Below are positions 4,820-51,892 of a stretch of 51,892 nucleotides of DNA, in pieces. How positions within the stretch are numbered: the stretch's first letter is position 1; each line of letters starts with the position of its first letter. Where the stretch lies: positions 1 through 51,892 of the IMG/VR virus record IMGVR_UViG_3300042691_006664; one strand, given 5' to 3'. This DNA comes from a virus. The position numbers and the translations under genes are program-made. The notes under the pieces were generated by a model. The model was not told the DNA's origin and did no database searches. It saw nothing but the letters and a program-made list of their open reading frames with translations.

Positions 4820-5107
4820 CTATTTATACGGGCTCACGATGGCCCTGATTTTTACTGCTGTTATCAAGTCGGCCCGTGCTTCAGCTATACGCGCCGCCTT
4901 CTCGCGGGCCTCATGAAAGGCCAGCGGTATCATGTTGTGTGCTTCAGTGACGGCGCGCTTGAGTGATGTGGTGCTCTCCTCCTGAGAACGTATCTGTGCG
5001 CGACACCACTCAACCTCTGCCATGAGACGTTGGTTCTCGTCTTCCAGTCTGCGGTACGCCCGCCTTACCGCCAGCGGCATCTTGTACTCGTCCAGTGCGA
5101 ACGTCAT
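4820..5107 (-). CDS. Hypothetical helical protein
   Basis: A 95-residue, almost entirely helical, charged protein (RRLEDENQRLMAEVEWCRAQ; later REKAARIAEARADLI), likely a coiled coil. Its AGGAGGG ribosome binding site and its ATG at 5107 both lie inside the coding sequence of the upstream HicA-like gene, so the two genes overlap by 98 bases in different frames. Function unknown. Confidence 0.62.
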   Translation of the reverse strand: MTFALDEYKMPLAVRRAYRRLEDENQRLMAEVEWCRAQIRSQEESTTSLKRAVTEAHNMIPLAFHEAREKAARIAEARADLITAVKIRAIVSPYK

Positions 5108-5303
5108 CGCGCAGTTCCCTCCTGATATCTCCTAGCAGCCATGACGGCCAGTTGTCAGTCCGAGGAGATAGCGAGAGTGTTACTCTCGCCACCTTGTTGT
5201 TGTGCTCCACGGTCACGGCGTAGTGCTTGCTCAGACGGATGGATACGATCTTGTACCCGGCGTCTTCCACTACCTTGGTGATGGACCTAGGGTTTACTCG
5301 CAT
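5010..5303 (-). CDS. HicA-like small protein with overprinted C-terminal extension
   Basis: A 97-residue protein from the ATG at 5303, which has AGGAG six bases upstream; an in-frame TTG two codons earlier is less likely. Residues 1-65 have the look of small HicA-like double-stranded-RNA-binding-fold proteins found in phages: a helix (ITKVVEDAGYKI), then SIRLSKHYAVTVEHNNKVAR, where H takes the place of the HicA histidine, then a strand and a helix (LLGDIRREL). The last 30 residues are low in complexity and overlap the next gene. No HicB partner is adjacent, so a toxin role is not implied. The fold assignment is by eye only. Confidence 0.5.
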   Translation of the reverse strand: MRVNPRSITKVVEDAGYKIVSIRLSKHYAVTVEHNNKVARVTLSLSPRTDNWPSWLLGDIRRELRDDVRTGRVQDAAGGKAGVPQTGRREPTSHGRG

Positions 5304-5625
5304 TGCCAACTCCTATGCGCTTGGCAGCGGCGAACGCAATGTCGAACTGCGCCAGCACTTCGGGATACGAGTGTTGCAGGAAGGTACGCATTGCTGCGTA
5401 CTCCACCGTCTCCTTCTGCACCGCTTCCATGATAGCCGAGATTGTCAGGGCTTCAGTGGAAGCGGAGCGCATAGTGGGGGTATGCGCACTCCACAGGCCC
5501 CCCACAGATGTGCCTACACCTACCCCACTGGTGTTTACTGAACTGGATGGCATGATCTGCCCTGTCCTTCTGTTGATATACACATCGTTGGCAACGTCAT
5601 GATCCCACTCATTCTGATACGACAT
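5287..5625 (-). CDS. Hypothetical protein
   Basis: A 112-residue protein. The N-terminal half is polar (MSYQNEWDHDVANDVYINRR) and the C-terminal half helical, ending with TFLQHSYPEVLAQFDIAF, a motif shared by several small proteins in this arm. It overlaps the end of the HTH-DUF6378 gene by 17 bases and the start of the next gene. ATG at 5625. Function unknown. Confidence 0.65.
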   Translation of the reverse strand: MSYQNEWDHDVANDVYINRRTGQIMPSSSVNTSGVGVGTSVGGLWSAHTPTMRSASTEALTISAIMEAVQKETVEYAAMRTFLQHSYPEVLAQFDIAFAAAKRIGVGNASKP

Positions 5626-6163
5626 TGGCCAGCACCGCTGCGTAACCAGCGATATCCGTGATGCTATCCATGTGGTTGGGGGAAGCCTTGAGACGCAGCA
5701 GCTTGACTGCGATCATCATCTTGACCGCCGTGTCGGCGTTGATGTGAGCACCGGATACCGAAGACCACACGAGAGCCACATCACGCCAGTGTGCAGCCGC
5801 GTCACCATATGTTTTACCACGTTCGTCAAAGACATGCGCTGCGTCCAGCAGCATCTGCACCCCCGGCGGCGGACCTGCCGCGATATCCGCCATTACTTCC
5901 GCCTCCTTGGCAGCGGATAGTTTATTGGACTTGGCCCTCTTAATGGCTTCAACAGCCATGGTCTTCCACTGTGCCTCATCTGGCTCGACAACACGTTTCC
6001 AGTTGGCCTTCAACACCTCCACTGGGGTCTGCCGCTGCTTGATGATCTTGCGCACGGTCTGGACCGATAGGCCCGAACGCCTAGCCACTTCCGCCGCAGG
6101 TGCATCAGGGCGCTTGAGCAGAATGTTGATGGCCTTCTGCCGCCTAAGACTACGGTTTCTCAT
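5609..6163 (-). CDS. HTH domain fused to DUF6378 domain
   Basis: A 184-residue two-domain protein. Residues about 10-45 form a helix-turn-helix (AAEVARRSGLSVQTVRKI). Residues about 101-184 match the phage DUF6378 family: FDERGKTYGD, ALVWSSVSG, DTAVKMMIAVKLLRL and MDSITDIAGYAAV. That domain usually stands alone at about 90 residues; its exact activity is unknown, though it resembles all-alpha NTP-pyrophosphatase-like proteins. A DNA-binding domain in front suggests a regulator. The start at 6163 shares ATGA with the preceding stop. Confidence 0.75.
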   Translation of the reverse strand: MRNRSLRRQKAINILLKRPDAPAAEVARRSGLSVQTVRKIIKQRQTPVEVLKANWKRVVEPDEAQWKTMAVEAIKRAKSNKLSAAKEAEVMADIAAGPPPGVQMLLDAAHVFDERGKTYGDAAAHWRDVALVWSSVSGAHINADTAVKMMIAVKLLRLKASPNHMDSITDIAGYAAVLANVVSE

Positions 6164-8582: not shown

Positions 8583-9731
8583 TTACATGGGGACGACTTC
8601 ACCCCACGGCGCATCCTTCTTGTCGGTGTTGACCACCCACAGCACCGGGTAATCCGGGGCAGGACCGTAGTCGGAGCAGTACAGATCGGTCAGCACGATG
8701 GTAGCCACCGGGTTGATGTTGTGCTCCTCCTGATAGCGGAAGATCGGGCTGAACGCAGTACCGCCACCGCCGTGGGGCTTGACCGCCACGTCATCACCAC
8801 GCTCAAACTTATCGTAGTGACACACCTCGTGGTCGAAGTAGACCACGTGCAGCTTGAAGGGCAGCATGTCCTCCCAGACGAACCTGATCTCGGCAGCGAA
8901 CTCGTTCAACTCCTTCTCACCGATGGAGCCAGAGCAGTCGATGGCGAAGGTGATCTCCCCCAACGTCTCGCCAGAGATGGACGGCATGTGCAGCCCAAGG
9001 GCTGCCATGCGGCGGTTAGGACGAGCCCATGTCCGGGTTTCGTTCTTCTGCTTCTGGACGAAGCGGCGCAACACCTCACGCCAGTCCACCTTGGGCTGAA
9101 GCACACCCGTCACAAGACGTTCCATGTTGGCCGACAGCTTGCCCATCATCTTGGCAGCCTGTGCAGCCTGAGCGACCTGTACCTTCATCTCGGCCTGTGC
9201 CTGTGCCACCTCGGCCTGAGAGCCATCAGCTTGCACCACATCGTCGCCAGTACCGGGGATACCACCGGGCTGCCCATTGGGGCCATTGCCGCCACCCCCG
9301 CCCGGAGGCGGTTCCGGCAAGTAATCGTAGATACCGTCCGTGGTTCCCTTGCCAGCGTCATAGGTGGCCTTGTTGAGCAACCCACCTTCGATGAACTTGC
9401 CGATCTTCTCGTCGGTAAGTATCTGGTTGATGACGTAATCACCAGCCATGTTCCACTTCTTGGGGTTGCGCCCATGCAGACGGTAGTTGTGCTCGAACAT
9501 GGGATGGAACACCTCATGTGCCATGAGGAACTTCAACTGCTCGTCGCAGAGGTCTTCACAGAACTTGGGGTTGAACTCGATCCACTTGCCATTGGTGGCC
9601 GCAGTCGGAAAGCGTTCCGATATGCGGATTTCCATGTTGAGCGCCAGCGTACCGATGAACGGCTGCTCAAGGATGAGGCTGGTACGCGCCTTGGCAAGGC
9701 GCTTTTCGAGGGGGAGTGTGTGGGGTTTCAT
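8583..9731 (-). CDS. Zincin-like metallopeptidase domain plus von Willebrand A domain
   Basis: A 382-residue protein with two parts. Residues about 10-135 carry AHEVFHPMFEH (H72, E73, H76, with H81) and WNMAGDYVIN, the signature of the putative metallopeptidase domain that precedes VWA in this family. A Gly/Pro linker (140-165) and an Ala/Gln helix follow. The VWA-like domain (about 255-382) has a full MIDAS: DCSGS (D265, S267, S269), GGTAF (T325) and LTDLY (D349). Such proteins work with MoxR-type AAA+ ATPases, and one is encoded 2.5 kb upstream (12188-13234). GGAGG precedes the ATG at 9731. Confidence 0.88.
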   Translation of the reverse strand: MKPHTLPLEKRLAKARTSLILEQPFIGTLALNMEIRISERFPTAATNGKWIEFNPKFCEDLCDEQLKFLMAHEVFHPMFEHNYRLHGRNPKKWNMAGDYVINQILTDEKIGKFIEGGLLNKATYDAGKGTTDGIYDYLPEPPPGGGGGNGPNGQPGGIPGTGDDVVQADGSQAEVAQAQAEMKVQVAQAAQAAKMMGKLSANMERLVTGVLQPKVDWREVLRRFVQKQKNETRTWARPNRRMAALGLHMPSISGETLGEITFAIDCSGSIGEKELNEFAAEIRFVWEDMLPFKLHVVYFDHEVCHYDKFERGDDVAVKPHGGGGTAFSPIFRYQEEHNINPVATIVLTDLYCSDYGPAPDYPVLWVVNTDKKDAPWGEVVPM

Positions 9732-10147
9732 ACGCGGATACCTCCGTTGTGCATGACTGTGATGGTGTTGCTGATCTTGTCAGGTTCGACCTGATAGACA
9801 CCGGGGCCGAACTTGGTGTGGCACGCTGCGGCAGCAGCCCCTGCAATATCTTGCAGAGCGATATCATCGCTGCCCGGGATGACCACCATGTCGCCAGCCT
9901 GAGTGATCTTGTCGATGTACGGCTTGACGTAGCTGGCGCGCAGCCCATGGGGGTACTTCTTGCCCCCTCTGGATACCTTGGCTTCCTTCTCGGGCTTGGC
10001 TGCCTTCATACCGACAGCCATCTCCTCACCATCGGGCGTCTTGATATAGAATTTGCACCCAAGGTTGGTGAGCAAGGACGCTGCCTTGACGACCATCTCA
10101 CGCTGCTTGGGATGCAGCTTACCCGTAAACATATCCTGTTGTGTCAT
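9728..10147 (-). CDS. Hypothetical protein
   Basis: A 139-residue protein beginning MTQQDMFTGKLHPKQREMVV. It has a helical N terminus, a strand (CKFYIKTPDGEEMAV), a Lys/Gly-rich linker (KVSRGGKKYPHGLR), and an alpha/beta C-terminal part ending TITVMHNGGIRV. No family recognised. The ATG at 10147 shares ATGA with the previous stop, and a variant of the CAACAGGA element lies eight bases upstream. It is translationally coupled to the zincin/VWA gene behind it (ATGA). Confidence 0.65.
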   Translation of the reverse strand: MTQQDMFTGKLHPKQREMVVKAASLLTNLGCKFYIKTPDGEEMAVGMKAAKPEKEAKVSRGGKKYPHGLRASYVKPYIDKITQAGDMVVIPGSDDIALQDIAGAAAAACHTKFGPGVYQVEPDKISNTITVMHNGGIRV

Positions 10148-10377
10148 CTGACTATTTCCTGTTGGTTGTTGGGTTCAGGCACGTCTAGTTCAATCTCACC
10201 TCCTACAAAGTTCAGCACGTATCTTGAAAACTCATTCCAGTGCGCCTTCTGCTGCACCCAATGCGCCTCATGATACGGCGTCCCTTGAAGGCTCGGCACC
10301 CATACATCCAGTATCCTAAGCTGGGCGCACAGTGCCGTAACCCTCTCAGGGCCGGGGTAATCGCGGGGGAGTTTCAC
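10144..10377 (-). CDS. Small hypothetical protein (GTG start)
   Basis: A 77-residue protein rich in aromatic residues (LDVWVPSL, EAHWVQQKAHWNEFSRYVLN). The start codon is GTG at 10377, directly against the TAA of the DUF3150-like gene, with GGGG about nine bases upstream. No family recognised. Its position between two members of the MoxR/VWA group suggests it is part of that module. Confidence 0.62.
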   Translation of the reverse strand: MKLPRDYPGPERVTALCAQLRILDVWVPSLQGTPYHEAHWVQQKAHWNEFSRYVLNFVGGEIELDVPEPNNQQEIVR

Positions 10378-44290: not shown

Positions 44291-46366
44291 ATGGCCGCAC
44301 CGCGCGAGTATTCCGGCAAGGGCTTTATCCTTGGCGGTGTGACCGACGAGACGCCCGATTGGCTGGGGTCTTACGACGCGGGTGTGCAAGGTGCCCAGCA
44401 GCAGACTACCACCCGGCTGAACCAGCGGGAAACCCGCCAGCGCATGGGGCAGAACGCCGCTGAAGAAGCGCGGCGTGCGCAGATTTTTGCTAACCAGCAA
44501 GCTGATCGTAATACCCTTATCGACGAAACCGGTAAGGCGACAGGTGCGTCCGACGTTCCGTTCAACGCTACGCCCGGTCCCGGGCTTATGCCCCTACAGG
44601 ATATCCCCGCCCCGCAAGCTCCGTCCCCGGGGCTGATGACCGAGCCCACATCTAATCAGCCGACAGCCCTGACCCGCGATCAGTTTCTTCAGATGCTTCC
44701 TGAGTGGGCGGGCTATGAAAGCGAAGCTGGCCTGCCACCGGGGTTCCTTGAGCGTACAGCCATGCTGGAGAGCAGCAACGGCACGAATTTCCGCGAAGGT
44801 TCCCAGTATATCGGTGTGTTCCAGATCGGCGCTGGTGTTGCCAAAGACTTCGATGTGACACCCGAGCAGCTTAAAGACCCGCGTGTCAACGCACAGGTGG
44901 CAGCCAAGCTCGCAAAGCGTAACGCTAGTGTATTGCGCGTATATCTTGGGCGCGACCCGCAACCGTGGGAGCTTTACCTTGCCCACCAACAGGGGGCAGC
45001 AGGTGCGGCGCACTTACTCAGTAACCCTGATATGAATGTTGTTGACGCCCTGACAAAGGCTTACAGCGGCGGTAATCCTGAGCAAATTCGTACTAGAGTT
45101 ATGGAAATAATCACCGCCAACGGCGGCAACCCGCAGATGACTGCCGGTCAGTTCGCTCAGGTCTGGGCAAGCAAGTACGGCGGTGGTGTGGGTGTCGGCT
45201 CTGATCCCGGTGTCAAAGATGTACCGGTTATCCCCGGTGCCCAGTCTCAGGCGTCCCGCCCGGGGCGCATGGACTCCGGCACAGCCCGCCTCCCCAACAT
45301 GCCGAATGTATCTTCGGGCGTTCCGGTCGAACCTGTGACCGGCGGTGGCAAAAGGGATATCCCTGCTGGGCTGATGATGGATGCGCCCGCCGCTCCTACT
45401 GCCCCCGGGCAAGTGTCGATCAACGCCAATGGCGTGCCGGTTACTGGCGCTCCTGCCGCACCGCAGCAGGCTGGCCTGCAGACCGCTTCTGAGTACGTGC
45501 CGCCGAACGTGACGAACGACGAGGCTATGCCCCGCGTGTCACAGGAGGATTATGCCGGTCTGGATATGCCCGGGCGCGGGTCGATTGCCGACCAGATCAT
45601 GCGCTCCCCCGCTGGCCAGCCTGCTGCCCTCCCCGAGTCGGGGATGTACCTTATCGAACCCGCGCGGATCACCAACGAGCGGCGTCTGCTTGCGGCCAAG
45701 CGCGGCCTGCTACAGCGGCAGCTTGAAACCGCCAAGCGCCTCCGTGACGTTGCTACGATCACCGATCTCCAAAACAAAGACTTTGAGATTGTCGCGGCTG
45801 ACAACCTCTTGCAGGCCATGGAAGTCATTGCCGGTATGCAGCAGGGCGACGATGAGCAGTTCGCTCAGACCCTGTCCGGTTTGACCCAAGGCAGGCAGCG
45901 TCTGCAGCCGCGCTCCGATGGCAAGTTCAATGTGTACTGGGACGGCAAACTGCAGAGCGAAGGCGTCGACCGCAACCAGATCATCGCTTCGCTGCGGATG
46001 CAGTACGACCAACAGTATCAGGCGCTTGTTGCCCAGCGCGTAGCTTCGGCGCAGGAGCGCGAGGGTAAGGTCCTCGACAGCCAACTCAAGCAGAGCGAAG
46101 AAATCACCAAGCAGCAGGCCATCATGTACAAGGATGTGGCCATCGAACAACTCAAGCGGTCGTACCCGGCGGATGCGAGCGTCAACTTCGATGCTGCCAC
46201 CGGCAGGCTGGTTGTTGTGCCGGATCAAGGCAGGGGGCAACCCGAGATGTGGGAGATCGCACCTGTTATGGGAACAAACGGCCAGCCTGTCGAGGATGGC
46301 GCTGGTAACCAGAAGATGGAACTGCGGCGTGTTAACACGGCGGGTAGCTCCGTACCGGTACAATAA
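44291..46366 (+). CDS. Internal virion protein with soluble lytic transglycosylase domain
   Basis: A 691-residue protein. Residues about 135-285 form an SLT domain: FLERTAMLESSNGTNFREGS with catalytic E160, then YIGVFQIGAGVAKDF and LYLAHQQGAAGAAHLL, ending with PQMTAGQFAQVWASKYGGG. The rest is Pro/Ala/Gly-rich linker (290-460) and a long helical C-terminal part (RRLLAAKRGLLQRQLETAKR). It should cut peptidoglycan locally as the phage injects DNA. Similar domains occur in T7 gp16 and N4-type virion proteins. AGGGGGT before the ATG at 44291. Confidence 0.88.
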   Translation: MAAPREYSGKGFILGGVTDETPDWLGSYDAGVQGAQQQTTTRLNQRETRQRMGQNAAEEARRAQIFANQQADRNTLIDETGKATGASDVPFNATPGPGLMPLQDIPAPQAPSPGLMTEPTSNQPTALTRDQFLQMLPEWAGYESEAGLPPGFLERTAMLESSNGTNFREGSQYIGVFQIGAGVAKDFDVTPEQLKDPRVNAQVAAKLAKRNASVLRVYLGRDPQPWELYLAHQQGAAGAAHLLSNPDMNVVDALTKAYSGGNPEQIRTRVMEIITANGGNPQMTAGQFAQVWASKYGGGVGVGSDPGVKDVPVIPGAQSQASRPGRMDSGTARLPNMPNVSSGVPVEPVTGGGKRDIPAGLMMDAPAAPTAPGQVSINANGVPVTGAPAAPQQAGLQTASEYVPPNVTNDEAMPRVSQEDYAGLDMPGRGSIADQIMRSPAGQPAALPESGMYLIEPARITNERRLLAAKRGLLQRQLETAKRLRDVATITDLQNKDFEIVAADNLLQAMEVIAGMQQGDDEQFAQTLSGLTQGRQRLQPRSDGKFNVYWDGKLQSEGVDRNQIIASLRMQYDQQYQALVAQRVASAQEREGKVLDSQLKQSEEITKQQAIMYKDVAIEQLKRSYPADASVNFDAATGRLVVVPDQGRGQPEMWEIAPVMGTNGQPVEDGAGNQKMELRRVNTAGSSVPVQ

Positions 46367-46375
46367 GAGGGCGAC

Positions 46376-49300
46376 ATGGCTGGACTGAACGACCCGCTTA
46401 CCCAACTGGATTACGGCGAACAGTTCGTCCGTGGGCCGCAGAGCGTCACACAAGCGTCCGGGCTCGCCGGTCTTGCTGCGCCTACTGCCAACGACATCTC
46501 CCGCGCCAACGCCAACTCGCTGAACGACATGCGCAACTTCGGGGCTATGAACTTCGGCCCCGCGCCAAAAGCTCCTGCCATGCCGCAGGGGCCTGTGCTG
46601 GCGATCTCGCGCTCGTCCGGTAAAATCTGGGCCAACGGCAAGCTGTTCACGCTCGACGACGCACAGGGCGCGATTGAGAGCGAGCAGTATCTTTCACAGC
46701 CGCCTGCACCCGCCCCCGCCGCAGAAGCTGGGGATTGGGAACCGCTTGACCAGACGGCCTACGCGCAGCACCTGCAGAGTATCAAGAACCCCGGGCTGGG
46801 CACGCTGGCATCCAAGAACTTCGGCATTGGCGTGGACAACATGCAGATGCTGGGCGGCTACGGCCTTCAGTTCCTCGGCGCTGAAGAAACCGGGCAGGCC
46901 GTCGTCCGCAACCAGCTTGAAGACCTCAACAAGAACGCGCCCTACCAGCGCAACTTTGAGGATGTGGGTTCCGAGAACCGTGGGTATCTGGACTGGTTCG
47001 TCGCCAACTTCGCCCAGCAGGGACCGAACCTTGTCGAGAGCGTCGTGACTGCTGCCATCGGTGCTGTCGCTGGTGGTGCTGCCGGTGGTGGTGCCAACCC
47101 CTTCACTGCTGCAGGCGGTGCCATCACCGCCATGGTCGGCAAGCAAGCCTTCAAACAGGCGCTGCTCAGTGCAGTCAAGAAACATACGGCGGGCGAAGTT
47201 CTCGACGCCGCCGAGACCAAGCTGCTGCGTGAGGCAGCGGGCATCACCGCCGCTGCCGCCAAGGAAGTCAATGAGCGGGTCGGTACCCAGTTTGTCGTGG
47301 ATGCCGCCGGTACGGCCTCCCGCTTCGGCATGGATGATGCTGCGCGCATCCTGAACTCTGGCTTCGACGATACAGCCAAGAAGGTCGCTGCAGGCGGGCT
47401 TTCGCAGGCCCGTCTCGGCGGTGCGGCTTTTGCTACCGGCGCGCAGAACTATACGGCTGGTGTGTCCGATCTCTACGGTGACAGCATCGAAGGCGGTAGT
47501 CCCGACCGTGGGCTGGCTGCTCTGGGTGGTATTCCCTACGCCGCCATGGAGACTGTGCCCGAGTATCTTGCCGCCCTCCGGTTCTTCAAGGGTATCGGGA
47601 TGAAAGCCGCCAAGGCTGGCGGCAAGCTGGGCCGCACGGGTTCCGTTGCGACGAATGTCGGTCTCGGCATTGGCGCGGGTGCCGCGCTGGAGGGTGCCAC
47701 TGAACTGGGGCAGGAAAGCCTCGGTATCGGCATGAACGCCGAGCTTGATTACGACAGCCCGGAAGGTATGTCTCGCCTGCTCAACGCCTTCGCTGCGGGC
47801 GCTGCCATCGGTGGCTTCGTCGGCGGTGCATCCAGCCTCAACAAGGGCAAAGCCCACGACCTCCTGTCGGGCGGTACCAAGCCTGCCGAGCAGGGCGGCG
47901 CGACGATTGACCAGCCCGACACACCGTTTACGCCGCGCCCGCCGAACCCGAATGCGGCTTCGTTCAACGACCTGAACGCTGGCGGGCCGATGTTCGCGCA
48001 GGACGGAACTGTTATTCCCCCGGGTACTGCAGTAGGCGCACCGGCTGCGCCCGCGCAGGGGCCGATCATCGACGGCACGGTAAACCAGCCGCCCGCTGGT
48101 AATCTGGGGATGACACCTGTGTCTCCCTCCCCCCAGCAGACGCAGCCCAATATGTTGCAGAGCCCTGCTCCGCAGCTTGCGGCCCCTCCCGGCCCCGCGC
48201 AGGCTACCCCTGCTGGGGCGGCTCCCGATGTCATCCCGTTGCCCGGTCAGATCGGCGGCTCCGCTTTGGATCAGGCCGCGTCCGGGCAGCTTGAAGGGGG
48301 CGTTCCCCCGGCTTTGCCGAACCGCCTCCAGCAAGCGCAAGCTGCTGCCAAGCAGCGTCAGCTTGAGGCGACCAGCGGCTCCGCGCTTGCGCGCCTTGGC
48401 CGTGGTGATCTGCCGGTCCCGCTGACCCAGCCCGGTGGTGCCGAGACCATGGGGGGCGCAGCCACTGCCCAACAAATTCCTACGATGACGGGCAAGGCCA
48501 AGCTGAAGCGCGGCAAGAAGGTCATGCAGGTCGAGGGTATGCCCCTCGCCGCAGCCGAGCCTGAGATCGACGCCACGGTCACGCAGACTGATGAAGCTCC
48601 GATGCAGGGTGATCTCGCTCCTGCCGACGAGGTGTCGCAGTCTCCTGTCCACGACAAGTTCGTGGCCGAGTTCGATGAGTTGCTGTTGAACGACGCCAAC
48701 AAGGTGCAGATAAAGGCTGCTGCCAAGAAGGCAGTGAAGGCCGGTGTACTTACGCAGAAGCAGCTTGATGACACGGCCTACCTGTTCAAGGACAAGGACA
48801 TGTCGGCTGGCGACATCGTGCCCGAACTGAACAGCTACATCGAAGCAAACAAGGAGGTAGCACCAGATGCCACTGAAGTCGGGGCCAGACCGCCGAACAA
48901 TAAACTCAAACGTGCGCGAGATGATCAACGCGTTCCGGGGGACGGGGAAAATAGGCTCGTCGAAACCGGCAAACGCCGCAGCAGCGCGAAAGCAAGCGAT
49001 AGCAATCGCCTTAGACAAGGCAAAAAAGCGACCGGAAAGGCCGAGGAGCAAGTAAGCCCAAAAGCGGAAGGGGCGGCAGCCGCCCCCTCAAAAAAAGCTG
49101 AGAAGGTTTCTGAGGAAGTTCTCAGGGACGCGGGCTTTACCGGCAGCGAAATCTCAGACTACCAGCGTGAGGGTACGTACGCCGACAAGGCCGAACAGGC
49201 CGCGCGCGGCTATATGTGGATTGCTGGACAGTTCCGCGCCGTAACCAAGAAGGATATCGAAGACGCGCGCATCGGGGCCGAGCAGTACAGGACTGAGCGA

Positions 49301-51892
49301 CTTCCGAAGCTGCGCGAGTATGTCAAGAAGAGGTTCGAGGAAGCGCGTGCGAGCCGCCGCGACTTCGGTCCCAACGGCAAGCTGGCAAACGTACCGTACA
49401 GTGACGGTCCTGCTGTTACTGAGGCGGAAGCCATCCGCATGGTGGAGAACGACCGCGCTCTCCGCACGGTACCTAAGCTAGAGCGCGTCTACGCGCTGAC
49501 CGACGAGGCCAAAGCCGAAGCCGCCAAGCCGAAGCAGGCGCTGGCTGTCGTCGAGCCGAAGGAGATTGTCGACCCCGAAACCAAGGTAAAGCGGCAGGCC
49601 GCTCGTGACACCGAAGACCTCGCCGGTCTTGACCAGCGCGCGGCTAATGATCAGGAGGAGGTGCGGGCGCTTATTGAGGTTTTGGATTACCAGCCGCCGG
49701 GTGGGGAAGACTATGAAATCGCACTGCAGGCGCTGATCGGTTTTGCCAAGGCTAGCGACACGCGCGTACCGCGTAGGTTAGCGCAGGAGTATCTGGAAAC
49801 GCTGCCCGCTGAGGAAGTCAAAATAGCCGAACGTACGTTCACGGCCCAATACGCCGAGGAAATGCGCAAGGAAGCTAAGTTTGCGCAGACCATACTAAAG
49901 TCTGACGCGCCCGCCGAAGCTAAGGAAGAAGCCAAGAAAACAATCAGAGATTATAAGGCTGCTGTTAAAGCTGCTGAAAAAGTCGCTGGTGATGTTGCCG
50001 CTATTGAGGATACGAAAGACTTCAATCTCATCGCCACGACGATGAACCTCTACAACAGCGGCGAGATCACCATGATCCCGCAGTCTGTTCTGGATAAGCT
50101 GAAGGCTGCGTGGGCGCGCATCAAGGATAAGGGCAAGAAGATAGGCGACACGCCGCTGGCTGCCTACATCAAGAAGAGCGACCCGCGTTTCTTCAATATC
50201 GTCAAGGGCAGGATCGAACCGCAGGAACCCGGGCGCTACTCCCTCTCCATGTGGGATACCCCCGACAACCCTGTGCCTGCAGGCCGCATCAAGCTCATCA
50301 TCCAGAAATTTACGTCCAAGCTGGCGATGAAGCCCGAGGTCCATGTGTTCCGCAACCAAGCGGACATGAAGGCCAGCAACCCCAAGCTCTACGCCCGGAT
50401 GAAGGCAGGCCGCGCAGGCGATTTCGATACCGCTATCGCGGCGGGCTATTCCATGGGCGACACGGTCATCATCTTCAGCGACCGGATCGGCAGCGAGGAC
50501 CATCTGGCTTTCGTGCTGGCGCATGAAACGCTGGGCCACTTCGGCTTCAAGGGCCTCATGGGCGCGAGCGAGTTCAACGCGCTCATGGATAAGTTGTACG
50601 ACAGCGATCCGCGCGTGAAGGCCGCCGCCGATGCAGCAATGAGCGCACGCGGGCTGCCCAAGGCCGAGGCTGTCGAGGAGTACCTTGCCGACTACGCAGG
50701 CCAGCTTCACACCCGTCTGGTGGTCCGCATCTGGAAGGGTATCAAGTCCGTGCTCAACCGCGTGGGCATCAAGTTCGGTGACGAGGCCACCCGCTACCTG
50801 CTGGATCAGTCCAAGCGTTACGTCCGCACCGGGCAGAAGTCCGGGGTGTTCAACACCAGTTCGGTAATGAGCCGCCTGTGGGCCGTGGAGCATGGCATGA
50901 CTGGCCGCTTCTCCATGGTCGGCATGTCCGACGAGAACGAGCGCGTCAGCAGGATGGTACGCCACGATGCACCGTGGGTGCCAATGAACCTCAAGGAGGC
51001 CGCTGGCAAGCTCAAGGATTTCGGCGGTACATGGGAAGGGTTCAAGCAGCAGTTCTTCAGCCTGCTCAAGTTCGACGCCCTGCGCAACCCCGGGCTCTAT
51101 GAGTTCTCCCAGCTTCTGGCGGAAGCCACGGAGCGCGAGCAGTACATCCACAACAAGTACAACGAGGTCCTGTCCGGGCTGCTGTATAAGGGTGAGAAGT
51201 ACAAGGCAGAGGTCAGCCGTGCGCTGCTGCTGGGCCGCGAGGTCTCCGTCTTCCGCTTGCTGGAGGAGCCGCTATCGCCTGCCGACCGCCGCAACACGCT
51301 GTTCAACATCGTGGATGGCGAACTGGTCCGCAACTCCAAGGCCATCGAAGAATTTACCCAGCGCGGCATCCTGTCGTACGACGAGCTTGTCAAAGGCGGC
51401 TCCTACTACCGCACCACGATAGACGAGAACGGCAAGTCGCTGCGCCGCGAGATCAAGTTCGAGGGTATGCCGAAGCTGACCAAGGAGCAGTACGAGGATT
51501 ACGTACTGTCCCGCCGCGCCATCGCCAACGTCGAGATCGAACTGCTAGAGGCCAAGTATAATAACTTCCTGCACAGCGAAGGTGTATCGCGCGGGGCCAT
51601 CAAAAAGATGTTGAAGTCGGCCAAGGTGGAGGGTGAAGCTGCCAAGCTGATGACAGGTGTTTCCAAGTGGTACAAGGAGATTTACGTCTCTGGCTACAGC
51701 GTTGACGCTCGTGGCAACATCACGCCCGGTCTGGCCGAAATCAAGAAGGCCGACGACTTCCTCGTGGCTGTTAACCGCGCACTCATCAGCGCCGATGCCA
51801 AGAACGATCCTGACGTGCGTGCGTTCTTCGACAGCCAGAAGCAGGCTGACGACTTCATGTCAGTGCTGGACGATGTGCGCAAGGACCGTAAG
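46376..51892 (+). CDS. Giant polyvalent protein with HExxGH motif, partial
   Basis: An open frame of at least 1839 codons that runs off the right edge; I checked every codon in the window and found no stop. Residues about 220-470 contain Gly/Ala-rich hydrophobic stretches (TAAIGAVAGGAAGGGANPFT; LGIGAGAALEGATELG; FAAGAAIGGFVGGASSL) that may enter membranes. A Pro/Gln-rich linker (490-700) follows. Residues about 1320-1430 carry LAHETLGHFGFKGLMG with HExxGH (H1383, E1384, H1388), a zincin-like motif typical of phage polyvalent proteins. It is followed by long helical regions. Such proteins are packaged and injected with the DNA. It directly follows the transglycosylase gene. A small gene is nested at 48867-49055. 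Confidence 0.85.
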   Translation, partial: MAGLNDPLTQLDYGEQFVRGPQSVTQASGLAGLAAPTANDISRANANSLNDMRNFGAMNFGPAPKAPAMPQGPVLAISRSSGKIWANGKLFTLDDAQGAIESEQYLSQPPAPAPAAEAGDWEPLDQTAYAQHLQSIKNPGLGTLASKNFGIGVDNMQMLGGYGLQFLGAEETGQAVVRNQLEDLNKNAPYQRNFEDVGSENRGYLDWFVANFAQQGPNLVESVVTAAIGAVAGGAAGGGANPFTAAGGAITAMVGKQAFKQALLSAVKKHTAGEVLDAAETKLLREAAGITAAAAKEVNERVGTQFVVDAAGTASRFGMDDAARILNSGFDDTAKKVAAGGLSQARLGGAAFATGAQNYTAGVSDLYGDSIEGGSPDRGLAALGGIPYAAMETVPEYLAALRFFKGIGMKAAKAGGKLGRTGSVATNVGLGIGAGAALEGATELGQESLGIGMNAELDYDSPEGMSRLLNAFAAGAAIGGFVGGASSLNKGKAHDLLSGGTKPAEQGGATIDQPDTPFTPRPPNPNAASFNDLNAGGPMFAQDGTVIPPGTAVGAPAAPAQGPIIDGTVNQPPAGNLGMTPVSPSPQQTQPNMLQSPAPQLAAPPGPAQATPAGAAPDVIPLPGQIGGSALDQAASGQLEGGVPPALPNRLQQAQAAAKQRQLEATSGSALARLGRGDLPVPLTQPGGAETMGGAATAQQIPTMTGKAKLKRGKKVMQVEGMPLAAAEPEIDATVTQTDEAPMQGDLAPADEVSQSPVHDKFVAEFDELLLNDANKVQIKAAAKKAVKAGVLTQKQLDDTAYLFKDKDMSAGDIVPELNSYIEANKEVAPDATEVGARPPNNKLKRARDDQRVPGDGENRLVETGKRRSSAKASDSNRLRQGKKATGKAEEQVSPKAEGAAAAPSKKAEKVSEEVLRDAGFTGSEISDYQREGTYADKAEQAARGYMWIAGQFRAVTKKDIEDARIGAEQYRTERLPKLREYVKKRFEEARASRRDFGPNGKLANVPYSDGPAVTEAEAIRMVENDRALRTVPKLERVYALTDEAKAEAAKPKQALAVVEPKEIVDPETKVKRQAARDTEDLAGLDQRAANDQEEVRALIEVLDYQPPGGEDYEIALQALIGFAKASDTRVPRRLAQEYLETLPAEEVKIAERTFTAQYAEEMRKEAKFAQTILKSDAPAEAKEEAKKTIRDYKAAVKAAEKVAGDVAAIEDTKDFNLIATTMNLYNSGEITMIPQSVLDKLKAAWARIKDKGKKIGDTPLAAYIKKSDPRFFNIVKGRIEPQEPGRYSLSMWDTPDNPVPAGRIKLIIQKFTSKLAMKPEVHVFRNQADMKASNPKLYARMKAGRAGDFDTAIAAGYSMGDTVIIFSDRIGSEDHLAFVLAHETLGHFGFKGLMGASEFNALMDKLYDSDPRVKAAADAAMSARGLPKAEAVEEYLADYAGQLHTRLVVRIWKGIKSVLNRVGIKFGDEATRYLLDQSKRYVRTGQKSGVFNTSSVMSRLWAVEHGMTGRFSMVGMSDENERVSRMVRHDAPWVPMNLKEAAGKLKDFGGTWEGFKQQFFSLLKFDALRNPGLYEFSQLLAEATEREQYIHNKYNEVLSGLLYKGEKYKAEVSRALLLGREVSVFRLLEEPLSPADRRNTLFNIVDGELVRNSKAIEEFTQRGILSYDELVKGGSYYRTTIDENGKSLRREIKFEGMPKLTKEQYEDYVLSRRAIANVEIELLEAKYNNFLHSEGVSRGAIKKMLKSAKVEGEAAKLMTGVSKWYKEIYVSGYSVDARGNITPGLAEIKKADDFLVAVNRALISADAKNDPDVRAFFDSQKQADDFMSVLDDVRKDRK
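48867..49055 (+). CDS. Nested DUF6496-like small basic protein
   Basis: A 62-residue gene inside the polyvalent ORF, in the +1 frame relative to it. MPLKSGPDRRTINSNVREMI, then KQAIAIALDKAKKRPER: the MPLKxGxSxxTIxxNIxEM and (K/R)QAxAIALxxA signature of DUF6496-type phage proteins, usually 50-75 residues long and stand-alone. A strong AGGAGG lies nine bases before the ATG at 48867. The protein is very basic, so binding to nucleic acid is plausible, but the function is unknown. The other frame across this stretch codes for a low-complexity charged segment (residues about 831-893 of the giant protein). Confidence 0.68.
   Translation: MPLKSGPDRRTINSNVREMINAFRGTGKIGSSKPANAAAARKQAIAIALDKAKKRPERPRSK

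Follow-up and report, generated by a model that had tools for sequence, protein, structure and literature searches.

A small gene nested out of frame in the linker of a giant phage gene, a probable site of start-to-stop gene exchange

A 62-aa open reading frame (ORF), contained entirely and at an offset of +1 within a much larger ORF, is very likely a genuine small gene housed in a giant polyvalent virion gene, within a linker that is disordered, and this linker appears to be a site at which small genes are exchanged. The window, i.e. the whole stretch of DNA analysed, is the IMG/VR virus record IMGVR_UViG_3300042691_006664 (51,892 bases), whose relevant features are listed in Table 1. Beyond what the preliminary description of this DNA contained, a second small-gene family, its exchange with the first one and the recurrence of the nesting in unlinked giant genes are reported here.

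Table 1. Coordinates of the nested gene, its signals and its genetic surroundings in the window
Feature	Position	Strand	Remarks
Upstream late gene, transglycosylase-like	44291..46366	+	phrog_22520 and phrog_4067 matches
Giant host gene	46376..51892	+	at least 1,839 codons; open to the record end, where it is cut
Shine-Dalgarno AAGGAGGT	48851..48858	+	ends 8 nt before the nested ATG
Nested-frame TAG	48858..48860	+	just upstream of the nested start
Giant-frame linker over the nested gene	48863..49055	+	charged, poor in hydrophobic residues, aberrant codons, stop-free
Nested small gene (family A)	48867..49055	+	ATG to TAA; 62 aa; begins MPLKSG

Results

The giant host gene and its linker

The giant gene directly follows the transglycosylase-like gene, and the gene order is alike in the related records L001 and L002. 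As a whole, 42 relatives of the giant gene were found in IMG/VR, whereas none was found in isolate phages or in GTDB genomes. An HExxH-type motif, AHETxGHFG, is invariant in three relatives, and Pfam gave no match for it. The C-terminus of the L002 giant matches F116-type PLxRFG/DarB-like proteins, and the giant of L055, another nested host, has LPD38. On the motif, the C-terminal match of L002 and its place after the transglycosylase-like gene, the giant is regarded as a putative polyvalent internal or ejected virion protein. An antisense ORF of 785 codons (46694-49051, minus strand) runs opposite a large part of the giant gene and covers the nested gene as well; it has no match in Pfam and is probably an effect of codon bias.

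The preliminary description had pictured the large frame over the nested stretch as charged, low-complexity sequence written in codons that are rare elsewhere in the gene (AGA, AGG, CGA, AAT and TCA). The first part holds, the linker being charged and having few hydrophobic residues. As for the codons, seven of this set were seen vs. 0.76 expected, and for synonymous-codon score the stretch ranks lowest in the giant gene (none of 550 other windows being as low), although TCA itself is absent from it. Over all nested hosts, the giant-frame codon usage in the nested stretch lies below the mean of the gene itself in 51 out of 51 cases.

Translation signals of the nested gene

That the nested ORF has its own AGGAGG and ATG, inside a large frame that stays open throughout, was confirmed. 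Among the nested copies, a Shine-Dalgarno match of at least 4 bases precedes 75% of the starts vs. 25% of the control +1-frame ATGs of the same giants (p = 7e-13, related genes not being independent), whereas the L148-L171 clusters show a weak match or none. Many carriers have a stop in the nested frame 1 to 7 codons upstream of the nested start, which speaks for a separate initiation of the nested gene.

Such stops also bear on a programmed frameshift from the giant into the nested frame, which would yield a shortened giant with a basic tail and with which the invariable +1 relation would agree. In many carriers the frame to be entered is closed by these stops, and in the window the TAG lets it open only two codons ahead of the ATG, so that just two codons are available for the shift. 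Moreover, the nested gene has its own Shine-Dalgarno and start, and the free-standing family members begin with the same MP(L/F)K. A frameshift is thus given hardly any credence. Under separate initiation, ribosomes would start at the nested gene's own Shine-Dalgarno on the late mRNA of the giant, and the giant and the small protein would thereby be made together.

Family assignment of the small proteins

The window protein matches Pfam DUF6496 (PF20106) with E = 2.2e-4 and a score of 22 bits, slightly short of the curated threshold of 24 bits, and the phrog_2423 profile matches its C-terminal part with E = 1.1e-5. The DUF6496-like nature proposed earlier is therefore borne out as a likeness, while formal membership, judged from these scores, is borderline. 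In L002 and L089, the nested copies gave no DUF6496 match in the Pfam search; they match phrog_2423 with 2.1e-8 and, over the whole length, 1.9e-9, respectively. A profile built from the nested copies of the relatives scores 98 bits on the window protein, which is itself part of that profile. Literature searches found no paper naming DUF6496. These DUF6496/phrog_2423-like proteins are hereafter called family A.

A second family of small genes, family B, consists of phrog_1375-like proteins of the type MPFKSxAQR... It shares the nested site and frame with family A in sister phages and is treated as a separate family; the profile comparison between the two gave a probability of 30%.

Structure models of the products of both families comprise two helices and a basic tail. 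Fold searches against PDB and BFVD returned nothing convincing for family A and only uncharacterised phage proteins for family B, sequence searches of PDB with the small proteins gave no match, and no nuclease family was matched by the products of either family (45-62 aa).

Constraint on the two frames

In eleven related copies, the variable sites fall at nested codon positions 1, 2 and 3 in numbers of 10, 9 and 33. In the related clade, where pairs are not independent, the per-site rate is 0.31 for changes that are nonsynonymous in the giant and synonymous in the nested frame vs. 0.049 for the reverse class, a ratio of about six, and 0.091 for changes altering both frames. Close pairs of family B go in the same direction (0.19 vs. 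0.045). The window copy is without close relative, its nearest nested neighbour being that of L015 (48% shared), and the contrast between these two is weak (0.61 vs. 0.38).

As for the giant frame, 18.7% of the nested-silent mutations would place a stop in it, and not one of 52 nested copies contains such a stop. When the small protein was kept fixed and its synonymous codons were randomised, the giant frame was open in 1.8% of the trials for the window and in 0-0.6% for most of the other carriers of DUF6496-type genes. Of 81 free-standing copies, just 2 lack a stop in the frame corresponding to that of the giant. Concerning the choice of frame, the nested copies are always +1, although among free copies it is the other alternative frame that is more frequently open (25/140 vs. 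9/140).

Taken together, the two rates (0.31 and 0.049) and the missing giant-frame stops indicate that the small gene is constrained and the giant selected for openness. Both frames are thus under selection, by amino-acid constraint in the nested frame and by avoidance of stops only in the giant frame; the small gene would be under purifying selection for its sequence, and the giant would need nothing but openness in its linker. The suggestion that the nested gene is the constrained one is thereby supported, and the per-frame substitution analysis, run on the relatives, did not confine selection to the large frame.

The near absence of constraint on the giant protein in this stretch, where the rate for changes altering both frames (0.091) is not below that for nested-only changes (0.049), could also mean that the giant is broken into at least two proteins, with an ordinary small gene between them and an openness that is accidental. 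In L025, L040 and L051, the giant is indeed divided between separate ORFs, and a variant nested copy lies downstream of the split. However, accidental openness does not agree with 52 copies devoid of giant-frame stops, when the probability of remaining open is a few per thousand for most of them and nearly one in five nested-silent changes is a stop; besides, L001 and L023 read straight through without any insert. A broken giant is accordingly considered very unlikely.

Presence, absence and exchange at the linker

DUF6496-like copies, all in +1, occupy the corresponding giant linker in L002, L015, L022, L024, L028, L029, L033, L034, L036, L037, L039, L044, L052, L053 and L089; in L038, the contig end cuts inside the small gene. 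No nested copy of either family was found in L001, L018, L023, L027, L047, L049 and L050, which implies that the gene is dispensable. The giant of L001 is 49% identical to that of the window; its linker is shorter, and the nested stop codon is the point from which it matches the window again.

In very close relatives without the DUF6496-like gene, a family B gene (MPFKSQAQRKYLYANEPKVAAKFAKETPKGAKLPQKVKPSKPKKK or kin) was found at the exact site, again at +1; family B is often what a giant has there when its nearest kin have DUF6496. A comparison of L036 with L045 gives 100% identity over the 60 nt upstream, 36% over the ORFs and 90% over the 60 nt downstream: since the flanks are near-identical and the ORFs unrelated in sequence, the exchange spans the start codon to the stop codon. 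On a tree of the giant N-terminal region, in which several branches are long, the states family A, family B and none require 13 changes vs. 18.6 with shuffled labels. Among the records searched for both families, many of which are fragments, carriers of one family showed no confident copy of the other, and family B carriers have one copy each.

Some irregular arrangements were also recorded. L162 has two family B-like stretches (9479-9655 and 10001-10183) within a single giant, both at +1; the former lacks a start codon at the family N-terminus. A nested variant of family B (MKPKKK...GVRSQAQ) is present in L025 (about 5558-5698), L040 (15273-15500) and L051 (about 6412), early in the second half of the split giant. 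The L040 match seemed at first to lack a start; together with those of L025 and L051 it is read, by eye, as a variant with its own ATG.

The length of any ORF, counted between its start and its stop, is divisible by three, so that its exact insertion or swap keeps the giant in frame; start-to-stop exchange is automatically frame-neutral, and the outer gene thereby survives the replacement of the nested one. The linker would thus act as a frame-neutral site where DUF6496-like or phrog_1375-like MPFKS genes are inserted, lost and exchanged, the sole condition for an insert being a giant frame without stop. Of the two origins considered in the preliminary description, insertion into the giant gene and overprinting of a linker, the common free homologues, the shorter linker of L001 and the start-to-stop swaps favour insertion or replacement, and the small gene was probably pre-existing when it entered the linker. 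A disordered, tolerant linker would also suit a gene overprinted de novo and later escaped to a free-standing life, but free copies occur widely, in phages that differ greatly from one another, and close relatives exchange the gene wholesale; the chances of such an origin seem slim indeed.

Recurrence in other giants and free-standing copies

When the nested stretch was masked, the nested hosts fell into ten clusters unlinked by BLASTP, every offset being +1, and searches with family B added many nested cases. These ten clusters may be remote kin. In the very large hosts, the nested gene mostly lies at 0.24-0.36 of the gene length; the case is weaker for the small hosts (389-701 aa). In L008, which is another phage, a short-form DUF6496-like gene (5001-5132) is nested, also in +1, in a gene of 1,160 aa that is unrelated.

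Long same-strand alternative ORFs in the linkers of the giants examined are all +1 and none is +2; consequently, the +1 offset does not count as support in itself. Together with the charged low-complexity sequence and a score just under the Pfam cut-off, this regularity would suit a nested ORF that is a by-product of the compositional bias of the giant and only coincidentally resembles DUF6496. Such a by-product would not explain the orthologous copies in place, the free homologues, the selection on the nested frame, the exact start-to-stop swap with another recognisable gene or the low giant codon usage in all 51 hosts, and it can practically be set aside in favour of a genuine gene.

Homologues of the small protein were found both nested and free-standing, the latter being common across very different phages, and the possibility that it had none does not apply. 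In L180, L193, L196 and L214, a family B gene stands directly behind the giant, at about 10001 (gap of -17 to +1 nt), and these giants are homologous to the nested hosts of the second cluster. The expectation that relatives might carry the small gene next to the giant is thus realised for the second family and for relatives of other nested hosts.

Free family A genes often come directly after the portal gene, and in Pbunavirus they lie among head genes. In Obolenskvirus, the CDS annotated as prohead/head maturation protease begins, in frame, with the DUF6496-like motif (2501-2611 in both L215 and L216, the Acinetobacter phages Brutus and P919); the annotation makes these matches look nested, but they are in frame at the CDS start. 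In phage 023Pt_psg01, a family B gene sits between the portal and capsid genes. Other places of free copies do not fit this pattern: phiCbK has one next to tRNAs, SP6 one behind the tail fibre and FlowerPower one by a holin.

Discussion

Generalised to the giants of diverse uncultivated phages, these observations would outline a conserved docking site, placed some 30% along the gene in a disordered linker, in which at least two families are stored in +1 and exchanged start-to-stop. Each phage would have one copy, instead of a free gene close to the portal or following the giant, and the two families would be equivalent in function and necessarily made with the giant. We regard this wider picture as having roughly even chances of being right. 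The position of the two families near the portal, fused to the prohead protease and inside or behind the giant provides a testable clue to the function of what are common yet unexplained phage protein families. From the gene neighbourhood of the free copies (portal, head genes, prohead protease), the product may tentatively be proposed as a small basic two-helix factor for the assembly of the head or ejection core or for the binding of packaged DNA, a role that we put forward as possible rather than likely. In annotation, gene callers that choose one frame would miss such nested genes.

The giant resembles the polyvalent phage proteins (PMC5512222) in being a very large late protein with a possibly zincin-like HExxH-type motif; relatives match PLxRFG/DarB-like proteins, and LPD38 is present in the giant of L055. 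A term search of the text of that paper gave no mention of nested genes. With DUF6496 (PF20106) and phrog_2423, the nested family A copies have in common the N-terminal MPLKxG, the QAxAIAL motif and the basic C-terminus. They differ in mostly being of a longer form, to which the window copy belongs, with an extra GKIGxSxPxxKxAA segment inserted, and in being nested, whereas DUF6496/phrog_2423 genes are usually free-standing.

The nearest published arrangement is that of the ShiLan-type insertions, in which HNH genes are inserted out of frame in phage methylase genes with the host frame left open, the ShiLan insert encoding a 195 aa HNH endonuclease that accounts for homing (PMC11855218). The likeness lies in a gene within a phage gene, in another frame, with the host open and a scattered occurrence among relatives, and the patchy presence and unlinked hosts seen here could likewise reflect a selfish homing insertion whose nested frame encodes its own spread. 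However, the products are basic two-helix proteins of 45-62 aa that match no nuclease family, HNH included, and two families are exchanged here, often standing free in structural (head) gene modules. The identity of the flanks, moreover, permits swaps by ordinary phage recombination. Homing is therefore held to be highly improbable, and exchange of small genes at a frame-neutral linker is preferred.

No account of small genes that are nested in giant phage genes and can be exchanged was met with in the literature searches, although this does not prove their absence. Overlapping genes are usually viewed as locked together; here, one partner is modular and replaced as a unit. A classic same-strand, out-of-frame nested gene of phages is Rz1, whose partner is Rz, the gene that hosts it. 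The same-strand, out-of-frame nesting is common to both arrangements (spanins: PMC6139136), but Rz1 works with the very gene that contains it, whereas the nested gene described here can be replaced by one of another family.
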